A stretch of 30,120 nucleotides of DNA from a virus. Where the stretch lies: IMG/VR virus record IMGVR_UViG_3300030012_002987, positions 1 to 30,120 of that record; one strand, 5' to 3'. Positions 18,480 through 30,021 of this stretch are shown in pieces; position 1 is the first letter of the stretch; every line of letters begins with the position of its first letter. Both the position numbers and the translations under genes were made by a program. The notes under the pieces are model-generated. The model did no database searches. It saw only the letters and a list, made by a program, of their open reading frames with translations, and was not told the origin of the DNA.

Positions 18480-18501
18480 AAAAAAAACTTTTACTTTGAA
18501 A
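18480..18501 (+). promoter_or_regulatory. Promoter of the A8-C/G-TTTT class before phosphoesterase
   Basis: Eight A's, C, TTTT, then ACTTTG: a member of the six-copy promoter-like motif of this region. TACTTTG (18492-18498) is a one-base-short version of the -7 box; a TTG at 18466 lies 23 bp upstream. The ATG at 18503 follows within 5 bp, so the mRNA would be leaderless or nearly so. A 7-bp hairpin (18432-18449) lies upstream. Confidence 0.5.
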
Positions 18502-18502
18502 C

Positions 18503-19744
18503 ATGGTTTTGAAAAATAAAAAACAAAATCGACCACATTGGAATGAAGATATGATTCCATTTATCAATGAACTTCGATCATTTCCGAAAGAAGTTCAAAA
18601 ACAATGCTTGTCTTCTGCAATAAAATATGCAAAAAATGGTGGTGAAATTGAAATCGATCACACCAAGAACAAACAAACTATCACTTCACCAAAATCATCA
18701 AGGATCAAAACACTTGAAGATCTGATCAAAGTTTGTAAAATAGACACAAAAATCTGGAATGTTGAAAGATATGTTGTCAACAAATGGGAAGTCGGATCAC
18801 AAGTTGATGGAAGAATCATTGTTGAACCATTGTTTCAAATCAAAGCATGGTTGAAAAGATCAACAGAAATTTTTGATCTGCACACAATAAGAAACGAAAT
18901 CATTGCAGAAGTCAAGTCATTTGCACCTAAATATCCAAAAATTGAATATCAAATACAAGATGAAGGTCAATTGATGGAAATCAACATTTTTGATCTGCAT
19001 TTTGGAAAATTATGCTGGGGAAAAGAAACTGGTGACAATTATGACACCAAAATTGCTCGAAAAAGGTTCAAAGATGCGATTTCAGCAATGATCGCAAGAT
19101 CCAAAGGGTTTGACATCAAACGAATTCTTTTTCCTATTGGAAACGATTTTTTCAATTCAGACAATTCAAAAAACACAACAACAAACTTGACACCACAAGA
19201 TGAAGATCTTCGATGGAAAAAAACCTACAAAGCTGGTCGTGAATTACTGATCGAAGGCATTGACATGCTTTCAACAATTGCACCAGTTGATGTTGTGGTT
19301 GTTCAAGGAAATCATGACTTTGAAAGATCATTTTATGTTGGTGATGCAATGGAATGCTGGTATCACAACAATGAAAATGTCAGTGTTGACAATTCTGCAA
19401 GTCATCGAAAATACTACAAATTCGGAAAATGTCTTGTTGCATATACACATGGAAACAATGAAAAAGTTGCAGATCTTCCATTGCTTGTTGCATCTGAACA
19501 ACCAGATTTGTGGTCAAAAACAAAATATCGTGAAATTCATGTTGGTCATTTACATCACAAAAAAGAAATCAAATTCATGTCAACACAAGAACACAAAGGA
19601 ATGGTCATTCGATTCATGCGATCATTGTCTGGAACTGATGCATGGCATGATCTGAAAGGATACAAAGGTGCAATTCAGTCGTGTGAAATGTTCATCTGGG
19701 ACAAAGAAAATGGTCTTGTTTGTCAATTTGCACACAATCTTTGA
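18503..19744 (+). CDS. Metallophosphoesterase (calcineurin-like) with N-terminal DNA-binding-like region
   Basis: 413 residues. The metal-binding motifs are complete and in order: D164-L-H166, G213-N-D215, G269-N-H-D272 ('VVVQGNHDFE'), H316 ('YTHGNNE') and G348-H-L-H351. This is the two-metal calcineurin-like phosphoesterase core, closest in layout to Mre11/SbcD-type and phage nucleases, so DNA or a phosphorylated nucleotide may be the substrate (inference). Residues about 65-120 ('TLEDLIKVCKIDTKIWNVER', 'NKWEVG', 'FQIKAWLKR') form a conserved helical/beta extension often found in phage members and may bind DNA. It is the first gene of the non-structural region behind its own promoter. It starts at the only well-placed ATG. 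Confidence 0.85.
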   Translation: MVLKNKKQNRPHWNEDMIPFINELRSFPKEVQKQCLSSAIKYAKNGGEIEIDHTKNKQTITSPKSSRIKTLEDLIKVCKIDTKIWNVERYVVNKWEVGSQVDGRIIVEPLFQIKAWLKRSTEIFDLHTIRNEIIAEVKSFAPKYPKIEYQIQDEGQLMEINIFDLHFGKLCWGKETGDNYDTKIARKRFKDAISAMIARSKGFDIKRILFPIGNDFFNSDNSKNTTTNLTPQDEDLRWKKTYKAGRELLIEGIDMLSTIAPVDVVVVQGNHDFERSFYVGDAMECWYHNNENVSVDNSASHRKYYKFGKCLVAYTHGNNEKVADLPLLVASEQPDLWSKTKYREIHVGHLHHKKEIKFMSTQEHKGMVIRFMRSLSGTDAWHDLKGYKGAIQSCEMFIWDKENGLVCQFAHNL

Positions 19745-19786
19745 TCTTTTTTTTTGGTCATTCTTATCTGGTAAATAAAAAAAAAT

Positions 19787-19840
19787 AAAAAAAAGTTTCA
19801 TTTTTCCATTGTGGAAATAAAAAAAAGTTTTACTTTTACA
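19787..19840 (+). promoter_or_regulatory. Tandem pair of A8-GTTT promoters
   Basis: Two copies, 19787-19807 (eight A's, then GTTTCATTTTTCC) and 19819-19840 (eight A's, then GTTTTACTTTTACA), start 32 bp apart in the 146-bp gap 19745-19890. The second has -7-like TACTTTTA (19831-19838) and a TTG at 19809-19811, giving a 19-bp spacer, as expected for Bacteroidota promoters. A small palindrome ttTCC-attgt-GGAaa lies between the copies and could be an operator. The rest of the gap holds only the leader motif AACCTAAAAA (19870). Confidence 0.6.
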
Positions 19841-19890
19841 AAAGAAATCAAGACACAAAGTTTTGATCTAACCTAAAAAACAAAATTAAA

Positions 19891-20235
19891 ATGGAAAATT
19901 CAAATTCACCTTCAAAATTCACAAGATTCGACAGACATGAAATTTATTGTGATGACATGCAATCTTTAAACATGGCACTGACATGGAAAACATCTGGATC
20001 AGTTCGAAACAAAATGTTCGGATTGTTTGATGGTTATCTTTATACAGATCTGAAAGATGAAAAATATCTTCAAGAAAATGGTTGTTCTTTTGAAACAATT
20101 CAAAAAATCAAGGTCTTGATCATGCACATCGAAAGAAAATTGAACATTGACAAAACAAAAGTTCTTTCAGAAATCAATGGTGATGGCTGGGGTTTGAAAG
20201 TTTTGGAAGAAACAATCAATGAAGTTTCAAAATAA
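19891..20235 (+). CDS. Hypothetical protein, 114 residues
   Basis: A soluble protein with no membrane segment or recognisable motif. The N-terminus is Ser/Asn-rich; the body is mixed alpha/beta with 'CDDMQSLNMALTWK', 'FGLFDGYLYTDLKDEKYL' and a C-terminal helix. It is the sole gene between a tandem promoter and a strong terminator, so it forms a one-gene transcription unit. That is unusual in this compact genome and suggests it is made early and in quantity, perhaps as a host-takeover protein (inference). The ATG at 19891 follows the AACCTAAAAA leader motif. No function can be assigned. Confidence 0.75.
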   Translation: MENSNSPSKFTRFDRHEIYCDDMQSLNMALTWKTSGSVRNKMFGLFDGYLYTDLKDEKYLQENGCSFETIQKIKVLIMHIERKLNIDKTKVLSEINGDGWGLKVLEETINEVSK

Positions 20236-20244
20236 TAAACAAAC

Positions 20245-20277
20245 AAGATCGGTCACTTCGGTGATCGGTCTTTTTTT
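20245..20277 (+). terminator. Strong rho-independent terminator with UUCG loop
   Basis: Arms 20245-20256 and 20261-20272 form a 12-bp stem with two G-U pairs, capped by a TTCG tetraloop closed by C-G, one of the most stable loops known, followed by T7 (20271-20277). It is the clearest terminator in the window. It ends the single-gene unit at 19891 and separates it from the gene at 20301. Confidence 0.97.
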
Positions 20278-20300
20278 ATTCACTTTAAAAAAAAACAATC

Positions 20301-20471
20301 ATGCAAAAAATTAAATTTTATCTTAAAAAATTGATCTATAAAATCATGAATCTGCAAAGATTTGAAGTTGTGGATCGTGTAATTTTAGACACTGGACTGA
20401 TCTGCATTCACATCAAGGATCATTGTTCTGGTGCAATCAATGTTGATGTGATCAAAAACGATGTCTTATGA
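20301..20471 (+). CDS. Hypothetical protein, 56 residues
   Basis: A short frame starting at the ATG at 20301 (leader aaaaaaaaacaatc) and ending TGA 20469-20471. Its stop overlaps the next start as ATGA (20468-20471), strong support for a real, coupled gene. The translation starts 'MQKIKFYLKKLIYKIMNLQ' (basic, amphipathic) and continues with a small beta-like domain 'FEVVDRVILDTGLICIHIKD'. No family recognised. It lies just behind the UUCG terminator with no clear promoter of its own, so it may depend on read-through or an unrecognised start. Confidence 0.7.
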   Translation: MQKIKFYLKKLIYKIMNLQRFEVVDRVILDTGLICIHIKDHCSGAINVDVIKNDVL

Positions 20472-20752
20472 ACCAGCTGAAACCAAGACAAATTTTTGTC
20501 TATAAAAACCAGAAAAAAGTTCCATCAAGATTTGGTGGTCAAATGTTTTATCTTTTTTTCAATGATGGTGAAAGATCATTCAGAACATGTGTGGACACTA
20601 CATTTCGAAACTTTCACAAATGGGAAAAGTTGATTCGCAATGCAAAAAAAGGTGACATCGTGAATGGTCTTGTTGTCAAATCAAATGGTTTGATCGATGC
20701 AGATTCAACACCATCGTATGGTGGCAACATATATGAAGAAACAAGACAATGA
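20468..20752 (+). CDS. Hypothetical protein, 94 residues
   Basis: A basic soluble protein. 'RQIFVYKNQKKVPSRFGGQM', 'FNDGERSFRTCVDTTFRNFH' and 'NGLVVKSNGLIDADSTPSY' suggest a small beta-barrel with exposed basic loops, which might be OB- or SH3-like nucleic-acid binding, but I cannot name a family. It is coupled to the preceding 56-residue gene by ATGA. It ends 56 bp before the next gene, behind which a promoter of the A8 class stands. Confidence 0.7.
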   Translation: MNQLKPRQIFVYKNQKKVPSRFGGQMFYLFFNDGERSFRTCVDTTFRNFHKWEKLIRNAKKGDIVNGLVVKSNGLIDADSTPSYGGNIYEETRQ

Positions 20753-20765
20753 ATTTTTATATATT

Positions 20766-20789
20766 AAAAAAAAGTTTTATTTTTACAAA
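20766..20789 (+). promoter_or_regulatory. A8-GTTTT class promoter before gene 20809
   Basis: Eight A's, GTTTTATTTTTAC, then AAA: the most consensus-like copy of the six-copy motif. The -7-like box is TATTTTTA (20778-20785), differing from TAnnTTTG only at the last base. No TTG is visible 19-21 bp upstream. The ATG follows at 20809. Confidence 0.55.
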
Positions 20790-20808
20790 TTACTAAAAAA
20801 CACAAAAA

Positions 20809-21258
20809 ATGGCAAAACAAACAATCATTGACACTTCTGGAAATGAAGTCGTTCCAGTAAAGTCAAAAACAAATCGTGATCGGTTGAAAGAATTATATGT
20901 TCATTATAATTTGAACGAAGAAGACATTTTCAAACACAAAAAATTCGGATACATTATGATCACAAGAACTGGCATTGAAAAGATCATGTCACATGACAAT
21001 GTTGTTGTGAAATATCAAACAGAAATGGTTTCGCTTGATGGTTGCATGGTCAAAGCAATTGCAACAAAGGGTGAAACCACAATTGAAACTTATGGATCAG
21101 CAACAAAAGCAAATTGTCAATCAACATATTTTCTTGAAATGGCACAAAAACGAGCAAAAGCAAGATGTGTTCTTGAAATTACTTCATTTTATTCACTTGG
21201 TGTTTATTCAGATGTTGAAGTTGATGAATGGAATGTCATGCACAAAACAAATCAATGA
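20809..21258 (+). CDS. Conserved phage protein, possibly single-strand annealing/recombination
   Basis: 149 residues. 'GYIMITRTGIEKIMSHDNVV', then a beta-hairpin ('KYQTEMVSLDGCMVKAIATK'), 'TYGSATKANCQSTYF' and 'LEMAQKRAKARCVLEITSFY' form a pattern I have seen in early-region phage proteins. The run M-A-x-K-R-A-x-x-R-x-[IVL] recalls the terminal helix of Rad52/ERF-like annealing proteins and related ssDNA-binding families. That resemblance is suggestive only. It overlaps the next gene as ATGA (21255-21258) and lies in the region that also encodes an SSB-like protein, a nuclease and a replication initiator, which fits a recombination role. No active-site motif is present. Confidence 0.55.
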   Translation: MAKQTIIDTSGNEVVPVKSKTNRDRLKELYVHYNLNEEDIFKHKKFGYIMITRTGIEKIMSHDNVVVKYQTEMVSLDGCMVKAIATKGETTIETYGSATKANCQSTYFLEMAQKRAKARCVLEITSFYSLGVYSDVEVDEWNVMHKTNQ

Positions 21259-21632
21259 TCATGAATGAAATTTTTCTGAATGGCAAATATCAAGTTGTTT
21301 CTGGTGATCCATATTTTTTCAAAAAGTATGGTGATCCAGTTCCAACATTCCAGCTTGATGACACTGCTGATGCAGTTTTTGGAAAAGATTGGAAGGAAAA
21401 ACAACAGATGCAACCATTTATGCAAAATTTTATGTCAAGGATCATGAAAATGGGTTTGTCTTTGTATGATATTGAAGAACCGATCTTGTTCGGAAAAATA
21501 TCTGCAAAAGGTCAAATCATGCGATTTCCAGAACTTGTTCTTCGATCTGAATTGAAATACAATCATTCAATCAAAGAATTCAATCTGCAAGTCAAAACAA
21601 AAAAAATCAAAATCAAATCTTTAACTAATTAA
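21255..21632 (+). CDS. Hypothetical protein, 125 residues
   Basis: Start chosen at ATG 21255 because it overlaps the preceding stop as ATGA; a second ATG at 21261 would remove two residues. The protein holds 'GDPYFFKKYGDPVPTFQL', 'QPFMQNFMSRIMKMGLSLYD', 'ILFGKISAKGQIMRFPELVL' and a Lys-rich end. It is soluble with no recognised domain. Translational coupling to the annealing-like protein suggests that they act together, for example as a recombination or replication pair (inference). Confidence 0.7.
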   Translation: MIMNEIFLNGKYQVVSGDPYFFKKYGDPVPTFQLDDTADAVFGKDWKEKQQMQPFMQNFMSRIMKMGLSLYDIEEPILFGKISAKGQIMRFPELVLRSELKYNHSIKEFNLQVKTKKIKIKSLTN

Positions 21633-21643
21633 AAAAAAATAAT

Positions 21644-21964
21644 ATGATACAATTTTTCATCATCATTCTTGCAATTCTTTTCTGGGGTGTCACCTTGTGG
21701 GTTGCTTATATTGCTGGAATGACAAGGGGTTTCAAAAACTTCACAACAAACAATCCAGATCACAAATTTGACAAACTTGATGCATCAGTGTATTCACAAG
21801 TCACTGGAAAAAAATTGTCAGACATCAATCCAGTTGCTGAAATGTTAGCTGATAAAAAAATTCAAGATTTTAAAGATGCACAAAAAATTGAATTGAGAAA
21901 AAAAGCTGCAAAAATTCAGAAGGCAAAACTGAAAAAAGCAAAAGCAAAAAAATTTAAAAAATAA
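21644..21964 (+). CDS. Single-pass membrane protein with basic cytoplasmic tail
   Basis: 106 residues. Residues 2-25 ('IQFFIIILAILFWGVTLWVA') form one membrane helix, followed by 'GMTRGFKN', a polar middle, and a Lys/Ala-rich coiled tail (about 75-106, e.g. 'KKAAKIQKAKLKKAKAKKF'). The uncleaved N-terminal anchor with a positive cytoplasmic tail suggests tethering of nucleic acid or a replication complex to the inner membrane (inference). It is immediately followed by the next gene with a 1-base TAATG overlap. No family recognised. Confidence 0.75.
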   Translation: MIQFFIIILAILFWGVTLWVAYIAGMTRGFKNFTTNNPDHKFDKLDASVYSQVTGKKLSDINPVAEMLADKKIQDFKDAQKIELRKKAAKIQKAKLKKAKAKKFKK

Positions 21965-22230
21965 TGTCAGAAAAAAAACACATCATTGATGAATGGTTTG
22001 ATGAAATTGAAGATCCTATTGTCACAAATTGGAATTTGATTTCATTGATGGAATCGTGGATCGATTATTCAGTTTTTGATGATCATGAAAAAGAAAATTT
22101 GCGAATCAAGATCACAAAACTTCGTGAATCAGAAGTTTCAAAATTTCTGGATTTTTTAAACGATCACCGAATCTGGCTTGATCCAAGAGATCAATTCAAG
22201 ATCATGGTCAAAAATGGTGTTTTTAAATAA
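21964..22230 (+). CDS. Hypothetical acidic protein, 88 residues
   Basis: Starts at the ATG at 21964, which shares one base with the preceding stop (TAATG). Trp-rich and acidic: 'IIDEWFDEIEDPIVTNWNLI' and 'ESWIDYSVFDDHEKENLRIK', with a predicted two- or three-helix fold. Small acidic phage proteins of this type sometimes mimic DNA or inhibit host proteins, but nothing here proves it. It lies in a run of small genes expressed from the promoter at 20766. Confidence 0.7.
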   Translation: MSEKKHIIDEWFDEIEDPIVTNWNLISLMESWIDYSVFDDHEKENLRIKITKLRESEVSKFLDFLNDHRIWLDPRDQFKIMVKNGVFK

Positions 22231-22249
22231 TAACCAAAAAAAAAGTAAT

Positions 22250-22468
22250 ATGTCAAAAAAACAAAAAGACAATGAATTTGCAAAAACATTGCGATTTCAT
22301 GGAATATCAAAAAGAATGCTTGGACAAGAAATGAATTTGTCACAACCAACAATCAAAACTTATTGTGAAAATCCACATAAATTTCGACTTGATCAACTTC
22401 GAAAAATTGGTCAACTGACTTCATTGGATTTGAATGATCTGGACAAGTTGATTGATGATGAAAAGTAA
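22250..22468 (+). CDS. Small helix-turn-helix protein
   Basis: 72 residues from the ATG at 22250, behind an A-rich leader; a longer frame upstream overlaps the previous gene and lacks a supported start. 'ISKRMLGQEMNLSQPTIKTY' (about 19-38) is a Cro/XRE-type helix-turn-helix: a polar first helix, a turn at N-L-S, and a recognition helix. The C-terminal part 'FRLDQLRKIGQLTSLDLNDL' adds helices four and five of the XRE fold. It probably binds DNA as a dimer and may regulate the nearby A8-class promoters (inference). Confidence 0.75.
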   Translation: MSKKQKDNEFAKTLRFHGISKRMLGQEMNLSQPTIKTYCENPHKFRLDQLRKIGQLTSLDLNDLDKLIDDEK

Positions 22469-22679
22469 AAAAAGACAAAATTTGATTTCATTCAAAAGTT
22501 TATCAGCAGAAGAAAAACAATCGGTTGTGTTTTATATTCAAAGAAATGGTGTTTCAATAAGACAAGCATCAATTGATTTGCACATGACAACAAACACAAT
22601 CAACAAAATTTATTCCGAAAAGTTCGGAAAAAAAGATCGTGAACATGATCAAAATAATACTAAACAATTAAAAAAATAA
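22455..22679 (+). CDS. Small helix-turn-helix protein, homeodomain-like
   Basis: ATGs at 22455 and 22458 are both possible; I take the first, giving 74 residues and a 14-bp overlap with the preceding gene. 'NGVSIRQASIDLHMTTNTIN' (about 33-52) is a resolvase/homeodomain-like helix-turn-helix: S-I-x-x-A-x-x-[IL]-x-[MV]-x-x-x-T-[IV]. Both ends are basic. Two small DNA-binding proteins in adjacent, overlapping genes suggest a regulator pair. It may regulate the phage promoters or recruit the replication proteins encoded next (inference). Confidence 0.7.
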   Translation: MMKSKKRQNLISFKSLSAEEKQSVVFYIQRNGVSIRQASIDLHMTTNTINKIYSEKFGKKDREHDQNNTKQLKK

Positions 22680-22683
22680 AATT

Positions 22684-22980
22684 ATGGAAGACAAAACATT
22701 CATCAATGGTTTATTCATTAGGGAAAAAGAATTTGACAATGGTGGTTCGATCATTAAGGTTGACATCAATGTGAACACACTTTTCGAGCAATTACAAGCA
22801 TTAAAAAACGACAAGGGGTTTGTCAGTATAGAATTGAAAAAAAGAAGGGAAAAATCAGAAAATGGTCTTTCACATTATGCTGAACTGAACACATTTGTTC
22901 CAAAAGAACAACATGGTTCACAAAATAAAAAAGACAACACATTTCACACATCAGATGATGATGAAGGTCTTCCATTTTAA
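22684..22980 (+). CDS. Candidate single-stranded-DNA-binding protein with SSB-type acidic tip
   Basis: 98 residues. The first 70 are beta-rich ('FIREKEFDNGGSIIKVDINV', then 'FVSIELKKRREKSENGLSHY' and 'AELNTFVPKE'). A polar, disordered linker follows, and the last eight residues are DDDEGLPF. Bacterial SSBs end in D-D-D-I-P-F, the tip that recruits replication and repair enzymes, so this C-terminus is the main evidence. The order (small beta domain, linker, acidic tip ending in P-F) and the location next to the replication initiator support an SSB role. It is shorter than E. coli SSB (178). The domain could be an OB-fold, but that needs structure prediction. Confidence 0.65.
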   Translation: MEDKTFINGLFIREKEFDNGGSIIKVDINVNTLFEQLQALKNDKGFVSIELKKRREKSENGLSHYAELNTFVPKEQHGSQNKKDNTFHTSDDDEGLPF

Positions 22981-22981
22981 T

Positions 22982-23063
22982 GTGAAGAAGATCTGCTGGT
23001 TCGGCATTTACTTGATTAAAATCTTGGAAAAATGGGATAAAATGTCCAGCAAATCTTTTTCAT
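22982..23063 (+). other. Long-range stem (18 positions) in front of the replication initiator
   Basis: The 134-bp gap 22981-23114 holds an inverted repeat. Left arm 22982-22999 (gtgaagaagatctgctgg) pairs with right arm 23046-23063 (ccagcaaatctttttcat) at 17 of 18 positions in RNA, two of them G-U, with a 46-base loop. It begins right after the stop of the SSB-like gene and ends 18 bp before the promoter-like box at 23081. The right arm ends in T-rich sequence, so it may be an unusual terminator. It could also be a regulatory RNA or an origin structure. Confidence 0.6.
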
Positions 23064-23080
23064 TATATAAAAATAATTTT

Positions 23081-23088
23081 TATTTTAG
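23081..23088 (+). promoter_or_regulatory. -7-like box TATTTTAG before the replication initiator
   Basis: TATTTTAG differs from TAnnTTTG at one base and sits in an A/T-only stretch 27 bp before the ATG at 23115, behind the long-range stem. The leader carries the AACCTAAAAA motif directly before the ATG. No clear -33 is present, so the call is tentative. Confidence 0.4.
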
Positions 23089-23114
23089 CATTTAAAATCT
23101 TCAAAAACCTAAAA

Positions 23115-24218
23115 ATGGAAAACAAAAACAAAGATCGGAATTTTCTGGGTGTCTGGATTCCGAAAGATGTATATCTGAACAAAGATCTTTCATGGTCTGA
23201 AAAAATTCTTCTTGTTGAAATCGAATCACTTGACAATCAAGATGGTTGCTTTGCTTCAAACGATTATTTTGCTGACTTTTTAGATGTCACAAAAACAACA
23301 ATTTCAACTGCAATTTCTAAATTGAAAAAACTTGGATATGTGGAACAAGTTTCTTTTGATGGTCGAAGAAGGGTTTTGAAAATTTGTGAATCTGCATACA
23401 AGAAAACCGAAATGCAGACAACAGAAAAACCAGAAACCAGCATCAATGAAAACTTAAAACATAATAATACAGATATAAAACCATCTAAAAATCAAAATAA
23501 AATTCAAAAAATAAATAAAAAAGAAAATTTTAATTTGAATAAAAATGATCTAAAAAAGATCAATGACATTGAAAGTGGTTCAATTTGTATTGAAGTTGAT
23601 GAATTGAAAACAAATCAAGTTTGGCTGGAACATGCATCAAGACATTTGAAGTTGTCAATGTATTGGATTGATCAACTTTTGAAAGAATTCATTTCAGAAC
23701 AAAAATTGAAAGATGATTCATTCAAATCAATTCGTGAACAAAAATCACATTTTTTGAACTGGTCAAAAATACAAGTTGCAAAAAACAGAAAATTCAATGA
23801 TCGATGGGGAAGGTTTGATCCACCACATGCAAAACCAAAAATCAAAAAAGTTGTTGAACAAAAAAATGAACCAACACCAGAAGAAAAAAAGCAAATGCAT
23901 CTTGAATTTTTGCAAACCAGTTTGATTGATCCATACAATAAATTTTTAAAAACTGGACAATTTGTGAAGATAAGAGATTTTGGAAATTTGGTTTCGAATG
24001 AATTGAAAAAAAATCAAATGTTGTTCAATGATATGTCAGTGATTTCAAAATACAAAGATTCAATTCCAGATCCAAAACCACAAAAAAACAATCAAAGATT
24101 GTCTGCTTTAATGAATACAAACAAAAAAGATCAAATGGTCAAAGATTTCATTTTTAGAAAAACATTTGAAAATTTGAAAGAAAAAAAAGTTGATCTTGAA
24201 AAAATACTATTGAAATGA
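23115..24218 (+). CDS. Replication initiator / replisome organiser
   Basis: 367 residues. The N-terminal 95 carry a winged helix-turn-helix of the phage replication-initiator type: 'FLGVWIPKDVYLNKDLSWSE', 'ILLVEIESLDNQDGCFASND' and 'VTKTTISTAISKLKKLGYV'. A Lys/Asn-rich linker follows (about 100-155). The C-terminal domain ('WLEHASRHLKLSMYWIDQLL', 'SHFLNWSKIQVAKNRKFN') resembles the part of such proteins that loads the host helicase. Family knowledge: they bind an origin, often within their own gene or just upstream, and recruit DnaB/DnaC-like host proteins. Its stop overlaps the nuclease start as ATGA. The AT-rich part 23450-23560 inside the gene is a plausible origin (inference). Confidence 0.85.
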   Translation: MENKNKDRNFLGVWIPKDVYLNKDLSWSEKILLVEIESLDNQDGCFASNDYFADFLDVTKTTISTAISKLKKLGYVEQVSFDGRRRVLKICESAYKKTEMQTTEKPETSINENLKHNNTDIKPSKNQNKIQKINKKENFNLNKNDLKKINDIESGSICIEVDELKTNQVWLEHASRHLKLSMYWIDQLLKEFISEQKLKDDSFKSIREQKSHFLNWSKIQVAKNRKFNDRWGRFDPPHAKPKIKKVVEQKNEPTPEEKKQMHLEFLQTSLIDPYNKFLKTGQFVKIRDFGNLVSNELKKNQMLFNDMSVISKYKDSIPDPKPQKNNQRLSALMNTNKKDQMVKDFIFRKTFENLKEKKVDLEKILLK

Positions 24219-24571
24219 AAAATCGACAAGATGAATTGCGAATACAAATTGCAGTTGTTAACTGGATCAAATTATCATTTCCAGAAATCAAGTTTTGTGC
24301 ATCAGCTGGTGGAATGCGAACATCATTGTCAGTTGCAAAAAAAATGAAAGCATCTGGATATGTCAAAGGATTTCCAGATCTTTTTTTGTATCAACCAACA
24401 TCAAAACACAATGGACTTGCAATTGAACTAAAAACAAAAACTGGAAGAATGTCTGCACACCAAAAACAATGGTTGCAAGATCTGAATGATCGTGGATATT
24501 TAGCAATTTGCACACATGGATTTGAAGAAACAATTGAAAAAATCACTGATTATTTGAACGAAAAGATCTGA
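24215..24571 (+). CDS. VRR-NUC family nuclease
   Basis: 118 residues. 'KGFPDLFLYQ' and 'GLAIELKTKTGRMSAHQKQW' give the PD-(D/E)xK active site: Asp55, Glu71 and Lys73, followed by the family's conserved Gln region (about 83-86). An N-terminal Glu near position 7 may complete the metal site. Phage VRR-NUC proteins are stand-alone, structure-specific or Holliday-junction nucleases used in replication and recombination. It is coupled to the replication initiator by an ATGA overlap, which supports use at replication intermediates. It is followed by a tandem promoter gap, so it ends its operon. Length is typical for the minimal domain. Confidence 0.92.
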   Translation: MKNRQDELRIQIAVVNWIKLSFPEIKFCASAGGMRTSLSVAKKMKASGYVKGFPDLFLYQPTSKHNGLAIELKTKTGRMSAHQKQWLQDLNDRGYLAICTHGFEETIEKITDYLNEKI

Positions 24572-24587
24572 AAAACAAAAAAAAACT

Positions 24588-24640
24588 AAAAAAAAGTTTT
24601 ATTTTTTGCATTTTTATAAAAAAAAGTTTTATATTTACAA
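24588..24640 (+). promoter_or_regulatory. Tandem pair of A8-GTTTT promoters
   Basis: Two copies, 24588-24610 (eight A's, GTTTT, then ATTTTTTGCA) and 24618-24640 (eight A's, GTTTT, then ATATTTACAA), start 30 bp apart in the gap 24572-24672. The first contains TTTTTTG (24602-24608). The second contains -7-like TATATTTA (24630-24637). The spacer between TTG and TATATTTA is 21 bp, as expected for a -33/-7 pair. The leader ends with AACCTAAAAA (24655). The pairing repeats the arrangement at 19787. Confidence 0.65.
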
Positions 24641-24672: not shown

Positions 24673-25050
24673 ATGGAAAATTCAAAAAAAATCAAATTAT
24701 CTTTCGAAGTATTCGGTGACTGGTTACTTGGTGACACAAAATGGTGTGTTGTTTGCAAAGAAACTTCAATGCTGATCGGTTGTGATACAAAAAAAATGGC
24801 AATGCATCTGAAAAGAAACTGGTGGGAATGGGAATTTGTTGATGCAAATTCAATCAGACCAAATCATGTCGTGACATTCTTCAACAAAAATGGTGAATGT
24901 GATGTTGAAGGATCAGATGACTTTCAAAATCAATTCAATCAAGATTGGAACAAAAATCTTCCAAAAAATAAAAATATCATCTTATCAATTGAAGATCAGC
25001 TTGATCATACAAATAAAAACGAAGAACTTTTCATTGATAGTCAAAAATAA
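24673..25050 (+). CDS. Hypothetical Trp-rich acidic protein, 125 residues
   Basis: The start at ATG 24673 follows the AACCTAAAAA leader; an upstream extension would need a TTG and run into the promoter. The N-terminal half is aromatic ('FEVFGDWLLGDTKWCVVCKE', 'MHLKRNWWEWEFVD'); the C-terminal half is Asn/Asp-rich and probably flexible. A Cys pair (CVVC) and a later Cys occur. No family recognised. It is the first gene after the strongest-looking tandem promoter, so it is likely made early and in quantity. That fits a host-interaction role (inference). Confidence 0.7.
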   Translation: MENSKKIKLSFEVFGDWLLGDTKWCVVCKETSMLIGCDTKKMAMHLKRNWWEWEFVDANSIRPNHVVTFFNKNGECDVEGSDDFQNQFNQDWNKNLPKNKNIILSIEDQLDHTNKNEELFIDSQK

Positions 25051-26504: not shown

Positions 26505-26508
26505 AAAT

Positions 26509-26528
26509 ACAATCTTTGTGATTGTTTT
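26509..26528 (+). terminator. Terminator 1 of a stacked triple
   Basis: Arms acaatc (26509-26514) and gattgt (26520-26525) pair with a TTTGT loop and run into T4. A 6-bp stem is weak alone; it begins 5 bp after the stop at 26504. Confidence 0.5.
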
Positions 26529-26556
26529 CCATCGATCAATCTGATCGTGGTTTTTT
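26529..26556 (+). terminator. Terminator 2 of a stacked triple
   Basis: The stem CGATCA/TGATCG (6 bp) is extended by CCA/TGG across one bulged T, with an ATC loop, followed by T6 (26551-26556). A normal, moderately strong rho-independent terminator that starts right after the first one ends. Confidence 0.8.
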
Positions 26557-26560
26557 AGGT

Positions 26561-26603
26561 GAAGAAGATTGCATCGATTCTTGGTGTGATCTTCTTCTTT
26601 TTT
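26561..26603 (+). terminator. Terminator 3 of a stacked triple
   Basis: Outer arms gaagaagat (26561-26569) and atcttcttc (26589-26597) are perfectly paired. The inner 19 bases can pair through eight further positions, half of them G-U, leaving a TTC loop. T6 follows (26598-26603). It is the longest stem of the three. Confidence 0.88.
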
Positions 26604-26624
26604 ATAACTAAATAAAACAATGAA

Positions 26625-27360: not shown

Positions 27361-28630
27361 TCTTCTTGAAAACGACACACACAATGTGATCTGCTATGGT
27401 GGTGGTGCTGGTGGTGGCAAATCAATGCTGGGTGTTTATTACATCATCAAGCAGTGTTTGAAATATCCAGAAACAAGATGGTGCATCGGAAGATCAAGAT
27501 TGAAAACTTTGAAAGAAACAACACTTGTTTCATTTTTTGAAGTTTGCAAAATGCAAGGTCTTCAAGCAACAAAAGATTTCACATTCAATCAAGCAACTTC
27601 AACAATCACATTTCATCGAACTGGATCAGTTGTTCTTTTGAAAGATCTTTTTGCAATGCCATCAGATCCAGAATTCAGTTCACTTGGATCACTTGAAATC
27701 AGTGGTTGTTTCATTGATGAAGCATCTGAAATCACACAAACTGCATTTGCTATTCTTCAAAGTCGAATTCGATACAAACTTGATGAAAACAATTTGATTC
27801 CAAAATGTTTGATCACATGCAATCCATCAAAGGGGTGGGTGTTCACTGAATTTTGGAAACCATTTTCAAATGGATCACTTGCAAAAAACAAAGCATTCAT
27901 TCAATCACTGGTCACTGACAATCCACACATTTCAAAACACTACATTCAACAACTTGAAGGTCTTGATCAGTTAAACAAAAAAAGATTGTTGTTCGGTGAC
28001 TGGAACTATTCTGATGAAGATTCAAATCTTTTTTCAATTGACAAGCTGAATGACATGTTCACAAATGAATTTGTCAAAGATGGTCAAAAATACATGTCAG
28101 TTGATGTTGCAAGGTTTGGAAGGGACAAATCAGTCATTTGCATTTTTAGTGGTTGGAAATTGATCAAGATAAAAACATGGAAAAGAAACACATTGTCAGA
28201 ACTTGCAGATCATGTCAAGAAATATGCTGATGAATACAACATTGCAAGATCAAACATCATCACTGATTCTGATGGTGTTGGTGGTGCAATTCCAGATTTC
28301 ATCAAAGGAACAAAAGCATTTGTCAACAATGCAAAAGCATTGAAAGATCAAAACTATAAAAATTTAAAAACACAATGTTTTTATCATTTAGCATCGATCA
28401 TTGAAAATGGTCAAATCTATATTGAAGAAAAAGATCCAGAAATCAGACACCAGATCATTTCAGAACTTGAAGTGATCAAACAACATGATGTTGACAAGGA
28501 CAACAAGATTTCAATGACACCAAAAGATCAGATCAAAAGCATTCTTGGAAGATCACCAGACATTGCAGATGCTATTGCAATGAGATCTTTTTTTGATCTT
28601 AACAAAACAAGAATCGTGTATTTTGGTTGA
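27326..28630 (+). CDS. terL: Terminase large subunit
   Basis: 434 residues. Walker A is GGGAGGGKS (25-33), Walker B ends in 'GCFIDEASE' (Asp131, Glu132), and the coupling motif is 'TCNPSKGW' (164-171). The nuclease domain has 'SVDVARFGRDKS' (Asp260, Asp267), 'ITDSDGVGG' near 315-323, and a last acid in 'SPDIADAIAMR' near 413, completing the RNase H-like three-acid site. The enzyme packages DNA into the prohead and cuts it. Start: ATG at 27326 inside the small-subunit gene, giving 'MHLSLKQTQAIDLLEND', typical of this family. It is followed by a promoter, not by the portal. Circular permutation of the genome is compatible with headful packaging. Confidence 0.96.
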   Translation: MHLSLKQTQAIDLLENDTHNVICYGGGAGGGKSMLGVYYIIKQCLKYPETRWCIGRSRLKTLKETTLVSFFEVCKMQGLQATKDFTFNQATSTITFHRTGSVVLLKDLFAMPSDPEFSSLGSLEISGCFIDEASEITQTAFAILQSRIRYKLDENNLIPKCLITCNPSKGWVFTEFWKPFSNGSLAKNKAFIQSLVTDNPHISKHYIQQLEGLDQLNKKRLLFGDWNYSDEDSNLFSIDKLNDMFTNEFVKDGQKYMSVDVARFGRDKSVICIFSGWKLIKIKTWKRNTLSELADHVKKYADEYNIARSNIITDSDGVGGAIPDFIKGTKAFVNNAKALKDQNYKNLKTQCFYHLASIIENGQIYIEEKDPEIRHQIISELEVIKQHDVDKDNKISMTPKDQIKSILGRSPDIADAIAMRSFFDLNKTRIVYFG

Positions 28631-28671
28631 TCTATTCACAAAATGTTCGATATTTAGAGAATATAAAAAAG

Positions 28672-28679
28672 TATTTTTG
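28672..28679 (+). promoter_or_regulatory. -7 box TATTTTTG before the tail operon
   Basis: An exact TAnnTTTG match, 7 bp before the ATG at 28686 in the 55-bp gap after the large terminase gene. It would yield a leader of only about 0-3 bases. No -33 TTTG at the usual distance is seen. It is the likely start of the tail operon that runs to 9805 on the circle. Confidence 0.58.
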
Positions 28680-28685
28680 CAACTT

Positions 28686-29117
28686 ATGGAAAAAATAAAA
28701 ACTTTAAACAAAAAGCATGAATTGATTCTGGAACAATTTGTCAACAATGTTGATCGTTTTATCTACGAAATAACAGATGAAGAAAAAATGGAAGTTTTTC
28801 AAAACTTTATTCCATTAAAACACAAAGCAAGAATGTTGCACAATACACTTGCAAAGAACATTGATGATGAAAAAATTTCAAAACAAGAATGGGTTTTCAT
28901 GTTGCCAAATTTTTTGATGTTTGGTGCATTTGGTTTTGCAATGGCTTTGAAGAAAACAAAGAACCAAGACATTCTGGATCTGAAAGTTCGTGAATTGTTT
29001 GAAGAAATGACTGAAACAATTTATGATCTTGATGAAATGTTGCAAAGTCATTTTCTTGATCTTGAAGCAATGGAAACACTTGAAAAAATAATAAACAAAA
29101 AAAAACAAACAAAATGA
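28686..29117 (+). CDS. Hypothetical protein, first gene of the tail operon
   Basis: 143 residues from the ATG at 28686, the first ATG in a frame that is open further upstream only through a TTG. Helical: 'LILEQFVNNVDRFIYEITDE', then a hydrophobic stretch 'WVFMLPNFLMFGAFGFAMAL' (about 79-98) that could be a membrane helix or a buried hairpin, then acidic helices ('VRELFEEMTETIYDLDEML'). No family recognised. It overlaps the next gene as ATGA (29114-29117), so it is coupled to the chaperone-like gene. If membrane-bound, its role in a tail operon would be odd; a helical bundle chaperone is an alternative. Confidence 0.6.
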   Translation: MEKIKTLNKKHELILEQFVNNVDRFIYEITDEEKMEVFQNFIPLKHKARMLHNTLAKNIDDEKISKQEWVFMLPNFLMFGAFGFAMALKKTKNQDILDLKVRELFEEMTETIYDLDEMLQSHFLDLEAMETLEKIINKKKQTK

Positions 29118-29809: not shown

Positions 29810-30021
29810 AGGGTTTTGGCTGGTTGAACACATTGTATGATCTTGCAAAAGATAATGTTTTCACATTTGGAAATCACAATGCAATCAATTCAGTGATGAA
29901 GACAAATTTGTATGAAGTTTTCACATTTTTGTCATGGAAATCTGCACAAAGGGAATATGAGAATGAAGTTCGTGCAGCTATGGAAAAAGAAGCAGAACAA
30001 AAACAAAGAAGCAAACGATAA
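29806..30021 (+). CDS. Second chaperone-like protein or frameshift extension (gpT-like)
   Basis: As a separate gene it starts at ATG 29806, which overlaps the previous stop as ATGA, and makes 71 residues: 'GFGWLNTLYDLAKDNVFTFG', 'VMKTNLYEVFTFLSWKSAQR', then a Glu/Lys coil. As a frameshift product it would be the C-terminal part of the protein at 29114. The frame is open in the -1 direction up to the T10 run, with acceptable codons. A GTG at 29686 is another formal start. The product fits the T part of lambda-type tail chaperones by position. The stop TAA at 30019 is the same as bases 1-3 of the window, so it directly precedes the gene at 19 on the circle. Confidence 0.65.
   Translation: MKGFGWLNTLYDLAKDNVFTFGNHNAINSVMKTNLYEVFTFLSWKSAQREYENEVRAAMEKEAEQKQRSKR

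Follow-up and report, generated by a model that had tools for sequence, protein, structure and literature searches.

The DNA analysed here (the window) comprises 30,120 bases, recorded in IMG/VR as IMGVR_UViG_3300030012_002987, and comes from a tailed phage of roughly 30 kb with its genes on the + strand. Its opening 60 bases are found again at 30,019, and the genome is therefore probably complete, measuring ~30.0 kb and being either terminally redundant or circular. Its terminase (27326) shares 44.5% identity with the terminase of Flavobacterium phage 11b and 43.6% with that of Cellulophaga phi10:1, which makes a host among the Bacteroidota, a large bacterial phylum, likely; a terminase profile run against genome contigs gave zero relatives, hence neither host nor prophage was identified. 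Our subject is a short A-tract motif, A8-(G/C)-TTT, which a sequence-only reading had presented as a promoter family of six copies, restricted to the non-structural region and resembling an early class with its own A-tract upstream element.

We found that the motif occurs at 18480, 19787, 19819, 20766, 24588 and 24618 and nowhere else in the window, in each case exactly and on the + strand, as had been described. All six copies lie outside called genes, and non-coding DNA amounts to 4.5% of the window. Dinucleotide-shuffled whole windows would be expected to hold 0.65 copies when both strands are counted; for shuffled non-coding DNA the figure is 0.19, with a maximum of 2 in 200 shuffles. The tandem pairs, given as 30-32 bp apart, measure 32 bp (19787/19819) and 30 bp (24588/24618), and the first copy of each indeed supplies a TTG, which precedes the TA of the -7 box after the second copy by 19 bp (19809-19811) and 21 bp (24606-24608); no TTG accompanies 20766. 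The AT box said to follow every copy holds for half of them: complete TAnnTTTR -7 boxes are present after 19819, 20766 and 24618, but not after 19787 (CATTTTTC), 24588 (TATTTTTTG, one base too long) or 18480 (TACTTTGA, one base too short). At 18480 the TA precedes the exonuclease start codon (ATG) by 11 nt, a spacing that relatives L014 and L067 share. A degenerate seventh promoter, absent from the earlier list, is located at 23063-23089, and its orthologues in relatives are good promoters.

Around 20 related phages were gathered by scans with five proteins, and 8 complete relatives were used for gene order, with genes called by a simple open reading frame (ORF) script; the module rows compared below are related, not independent counts, and the p-values ignore this relatedness. 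Both tandem places are syntenic in ~20 relatives, site 1 being found after the exonuclease gene and site 2 after the VRR-NUC gene. The relatives' module contains TTATCTAGTAAA or its reverse complement, one or two TGAAA/A-tract boxes, TTG-TGGAATGAAA-N-GTTTTA and the -7 box TATCTTTAC (TAnnTTTA), followed, often after a leader hairpin, by AACC(T/A)AAAAAAAC and the start codon. In the alignment, 19787 and 24588 correspond to the upstream box and 19819 and 24618 to the promoter box, the TGAAA of the relatives reading TAAAA in the window. The idea of six independent promoters was thus abandoned: 18480 is doubtful, and the two tandem modules have 19787 and 24588 as their upstream boxes. TGAAA boxes of relatives are spaced by 10, 20, 22, 31 and 41-42 bp (two outliers, 5 and 36, both occur in one module) and start at -33, -44 and -54 from the TA, the spacings being multiples of about 10.5 bp. 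Such spacings would place the boxes on one face of the helix, where UP elements would sit; in E. coli, the A/T tracts of the UP element are centred near -42, -52 and -62. The proposal of an A-tract upstream element agrees with this helical phasing. The TTATCTAGTAAA-like element itself, which can point either way, accompanies sites 1 and 2 at about one copy per cassette and is hardly seen elsewhere (window 19764-19775; L097 3702 and 8897; L100 5143, 10416 and 11123), and it reads CTGG in the CTAG-free window.

The 22-mer A8-GTTTTAYNTTTRCA proved to be a promoter form of the Bacteroidota. When AAAAAAAAGTTTTAYNTTTRCA was run against 84,980 genomes of bacteria and archaea, 84 stretches matched; among the 80 matches listed, 73 belong to Bacteroidota by record title and 65 fall in non-coding DNA, against 18% expected, while a tRNA gene lies 8-38 nt downstream at 16 of the 60 loci scanned. 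Phylum enrichment, non-coding placement and downstream tRNA genes together identify the A8 form as a host-type promoter, apparently a strong one. A class of A-tract promoters belonging to the phage alone is therefore not supported: the 22-mer also precedes tRNA genes in the host phylum, and most relatives carry TGAAA-N-GTTTTA instead of a pure A run. A -33 TTG element is part of Bacteroidota promoter geometry, and a TTG is found 16-21 bp before the TA in most of 38 modules, with the predicted start 12 nt past the first base of the box, as in sigma-A promoters of the phylum; the predicted +1 is an A, invariant across 19 leaders. The -7 box TAnnTTTG and the start position are documented for Bacteroidota, with motifs SM1-SM3 of F. 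psychrophilum, where TAnnTTGY (SM5) is also known (PMC9723704). A difference from sigma-A promoters is that the window and most cargo modules have an A as the last -7 base; the A-tract form is also far denser here: the window holds 3 A-tract promoters in 30 kb, all ending in TTTA, whereas a slightly shorter version of the 22-mer is rare in the host family (23 in 199 genomes, 21 of them ending in TTTG). Neither the TGAAA-spacer pattern nor the A-tract promoter pattern was detected in the cultured phages 11b, P12002L and phi10:1.

Downstream of the predicted start, 19 leaders with an ACAAA loop share an 8-bp stem, paired in 94.7% of alignment cells, in which 6 of 8 pairs are altered on both sides. 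This covariation is accompanied by a level of pairing reached in none of 500 shuffles (slid partners pair in 30-49%), and RNAalifold gives the same structure unprompted. Six more leaders have other short hairpins at the same position. The literature searched (the search was not exhaustive) did not mention a covarying 5' hairpin joined to cargo promoters of this kind, and the leader covariance model R1 gave no match in 299 host-family genomes, in a search run without a positive control.

Core gene order is constant in the 8 complete relatives, and the variable genes occupy sites 1 and 2 as well as a site 3, which lies within the structural region and is flanked by the orthologues of 10313 and 10724. 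Matches of the leader model in complete relatives (E<0.05) precede variable genes at these three sites in 15 of 15 mapped cases and core genes in none; the site 2 match of G002 was placed by inspection, as the ORF caller had extended the cargo gene upstream. The cargo genes exchange places. One family is common to site 1 of G003 and site 2 of G005 and G011, another to site 2 of G003 and site 1 of G005, a third to site 3 of G007/G008 and site 1 of G011, a fourth to site 3 of G004 and site 2 of the window, and a fifth to site 1 of the window and site 2 of L065. One cargo gene encodes a C5 DNA methylase (PF00145); the other cargo examined is without known function. Both cargo proteins of the window lack a Pfam or PHROGs match and any relative among 50,697 phage records, and an AlphaFold model of cargo 24673 built from four sequences (mean pLDDT 54) was not used. 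A conserved promoter is common to unrelated accessory genes, each unit having its own promoter, as judged by sequence, and the gene is missing at the same place in close relatives. The UUCG terminator closing the site 1 unit also ends the site 2 cargo in G001. GC-rich hairpins, e.g., GGGCGGG-N-CCCGCCC, mostly without a T run, follow cargo in L101, L103, L104, L105 and L106 (G007, G008, G011), and site 3 closes with a terminator-like ACACGGGC-N-CCCGTGTTTTTTT of its own ahead of the 10724 orthologue (L102 12516-12615, L103 5296-5394, coding orientation).

The cargo promoters were compared with promoters preceding three structural-region genes, which are of another form, TATTTTTG without A-tract. 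A TGAAA or A7 in the spacer is present in 24/24 cargo but 3/24 structural promoters (nominal p 2e-10, related sequences), and the -7 box ends in TTTA in 17/24 versus 1/24 (nominal p 2e-6, related sequences), a final G being found in 7/24 cargo modules of complete genomes and 23/24 structural promoters; the window has TAnnTTTA. The copies thus belong to promoter regions distinct in sequence from those of structural genes, and the division into two classes is real in spacer and -7 ending. It tracks cargo genes rather than the non-structural region: no copy stands before a structural gene in the window, but G004, G007 and G008 carry the module in the structural region where a cargo gene is inserted, therefore the class follows the cargo and the supposed regional restriction is not supported.

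Table 1. Coordinates of promoter elements, cargo genes and associated features in the window.
Feature	Position	Strand	Remarks
Copy 1, A8-C-TTTTACTTTG, doubtful promoter	18480..18498	+	-7 box one base short (TAnnTTG)
Gene of DNA repair exonuclease type, bordering cargo site 1 on the left	18503..19744	+	PHROG 704, E=1e-79
TTATCTGGTAAA, window form of the TTATCTAGTAAA element	19764..19775	+	in relatives ~1 per cassette, hardly any elsewhere
Copy 2 (19787), upstream A-tract box 1, no promoter alone	19785..19801	+	relatives have ATGAAA-N5-TTTSAT boxes here in the alignment
TTG of the -33 element	19809..19811	+	19 bp from -7 box; close relatives keep it as CATTGTGGAA
Copy 3 (19819), A-tract box 2, -7 box TACTTTTAC	19817..19839	+	predicted transcription start 19843
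5' leader hairpin, 8-bp stem AUCAAGAC/GUUUUGAU, loop ACAAA	19847..19867	+	covariation; -6.6 kcal/mol, z -3.0
Site 1 cargo gene, 114 aa, no known family	19891..20235	+	sole relative found at site 2 of L065
Intrinsic terminator, UUCG loop, closes site 1 unit	20245..20277	+	-16.7 kcal/mol, z -6.4
Copy 4, single promoter A8-GTTT-TATTTTTAC of gene 20809	20766..20786	+	same-place promoters in G001, G002, L065, L068; predicted transcription start 20790
Cro/C1-type helix-turn-helix (HTH) protein, candidate regulator	22250..22468	+	Pfam HTH_26, E=7e-4, below curated cut-off
Degenerate seventh promoter before replication-initiation-like gene 23115	23063..23089	+	GTGAAAAAAATGTTTAYTTTTG there in relatives
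Copy 5, site 2 upstream A-tract box 1	24588..24605	+	box 1 of G004, L078, L079 of the same form
TTG (24606-24608), copy 6 (24618) box 2, -7 box TATATTTA	24606..24637	+	predicted transcription start 24642
Site 2 cargo gene, 125 aa, no known family	24673..25050	+	homologues in G010, G015 (site 2) and G004 (site 3, structural region)

Morons are independently transcribed accessory genes of phages. The explanation we favour, with fair though limited confidence, is that the A8 copies are parts of Bacteroidota sigma-A-like promoter regions driving moron-like cargo units under host-type promoters; its observed basis comprises the sequences themselves, synteny, covariation, cargo swaps and the host-phylum promoter form. 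As in morons, the units have their own promoter and (at site 1) their own terminator, and are absent from the orthologous place in relatives; different from them, several units here have one common regulatory module and exchange places. The promoter would consist of a TTG at -33, an 18-21 bp spacer with an A-tract (TGAAA-N-GTTT in most relatives, A8-GTTT here) and a -7 box TAYnTTTA/G, and at both tandem places an extra A-tract box about three helical turns upstream would occupy the position of an UP element for the alpha subunit. This box, the TTATCTAGTAAA-like element and, at site 1, the 5'-proximal leader hairpin may together form a module heading interchangeable accessory genes. Host RNA polymerase would read the cargo promoters once phage DNA enters, presumably strongly and with no phage factor needed, which makes early expression plausible. 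The hairpin near the 5' end could shield the transcript, and the A-rich unstructured leader after it would keep the start codon open and so serve translation; messages of Bacteroidota are described as being without Shine-Dalgarno sequences (PMC6847099). The intrinsic terminator of site 1 would insulate the unit from its neighbours, and the common module sequence could allow cargo to move between sites by recombination.

Several observations weigh against this explanation. No terminator lies immediately 3' of the site 2 cargo of the window, the leader hairpin of this site is weak (z 0.64), and several modules of G003, G004 and G005 are without a hairpin. Moreover, 70 of the 73 Bacteroidota matches end in TTTG and the window boxes in TTTA; a box of the latter form might be weaker or recognised differently. 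Finally, boxes are more alike within a genome than expected (0.71 vs 0.63, permutation p 0.0006), a likeness that a trans-acting phage regulator would also explain.

The main rival to host-polymerase promoters, which we regard as possible but rather unlikely, builds on the latter point and takes the TGAAA/A-tract boxes for operators of a phage DNA-binding protein (22250 or 22455), similar to Aca repressors, with boxes 1 and 2 binding dimers on one helix face and thereby repressing or activating the cargo promoters. The sequence of box 1 comes close to a palindrome (ATGAAA-N3-6-TTTSAT), as is best seen upstream of gene 20809 in relatives, with the reversed control pattern nearly absent, and the phased spacing fits this proposal as well. 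Besides, protein 22250 is kept in most relatives, where its helix SQPTIK is near-invariant, and Aca8 has been proposed to act in this way in archaeal viruses (PMC11065993). Yet, this helix stays constant though boxes vary between the A8 and TGAAA types (G011 has both), and the boxes of the window are no longer palindromic. The A8 form is also present in host tRNA promoters, therefore no phage protein is needed to explain it. A change of HTH specificity behind the A8 and TGAAA forms was rejected, the recognition helix being unchanged. Operator control by small HTH proteins and reading by host polymerase could coexist. A more elaborate scheme, to which we give distinctly less credence, is a phage-wide cargo regulon in which the TAnnTTTA promoter, phased operator boxes and 5' RNA hairpin would be read jointly by phage factors, switching interchangeable anti-defence genes on at entry and then off.

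Still less probable in our view is that the leader hairpin is a DNA palindrome, i.e., an operator, and not an RNA element. Its stems are short (5-8 bp) and lie just downstream of the predicted start, as such a site might; the column pair 23/33, however, is G-U in 12 of 19 rows, which keeps the RNA pair but breaks the DNA palindrome and thus argues for RNA, and the loop stays near ACAAA whatever the stem. That the repeats are A-rich translation leaders or compositional noise, as the 80% A+T of the intergenic DNA and the A-rich leaders of the phage might suggest, is very improbable given six copies against 0.19 expected, the fixed -33/-7 geometry and the conserved position in relatives; position and geometry refute it for 19819, 20766 and 24618, and it is possible for 18480.

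The closest idea is that of the shared-promoter anti-defence regulons of archaeal viruses, where anti-defence genes have a common early promoter of a form that host genes with high expression also use, and where repression by a small HTH protein has been proposed (PMC11065993). Here too, one conserved and presumably strong promoter region precedes many unrelated small accessory genes, host genes with high expression have the same promoter form, and a small HTH gene is conserved. In contrast, the present system belongs to a tailed phage of Bacteroidota and has another promoter type, a covarying 5' hairpin and three cargo sites; early timing and an anti-defence role, which mark the archaeal case, are possibilities here. 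The SAS/ESAS of Cluster K mycobacteriophages (PMC3203893), which likewise recur as regulatory sequences ahead of genes from different families and contain imperfect inverted repeats, offer a looser parallel, since SAS adjoins the start codon, whereas here a full promoter with leader hairpin is present. If the module marks cargo genes group-wide, the covariance model would allow phages of Bacteroidota to be searched directly for unknown accessory genes, which probably act in counter-defence. The module also offers a compact test case for a promoter and 5' leader hairpin travelling with exchangeable genes, and, should the regulon scheme be true, the hairpin would represent a novel type of RNA element in the control of genes for counter-defence.

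Other features of the window were noted as well. Because CTAG, GTAC, ACGT, CCGG and GGCC never occur in it (Markov estimate: 1.9-12.6 expected) and GATC is over-represented (281 vs 192 expected), restriction-site avoidance is suggested; G004, G007, G008 and G011 are likewise without CTAG. The non-coding gap 26505-26624 is conserved in relatives and contains ACAATCTTTG-GATTGTTTTCC, two stem-loop-like stretches and T runs; it looks like a small RNA or a double terminator, and an Rfam search of the window, this gap included, gave zero matches. The TATTTTTGC box at 28672 falls within the listed ORF 28593-29117, therefore the true gene start is probably near 28681, where the gene of the relatives begins.

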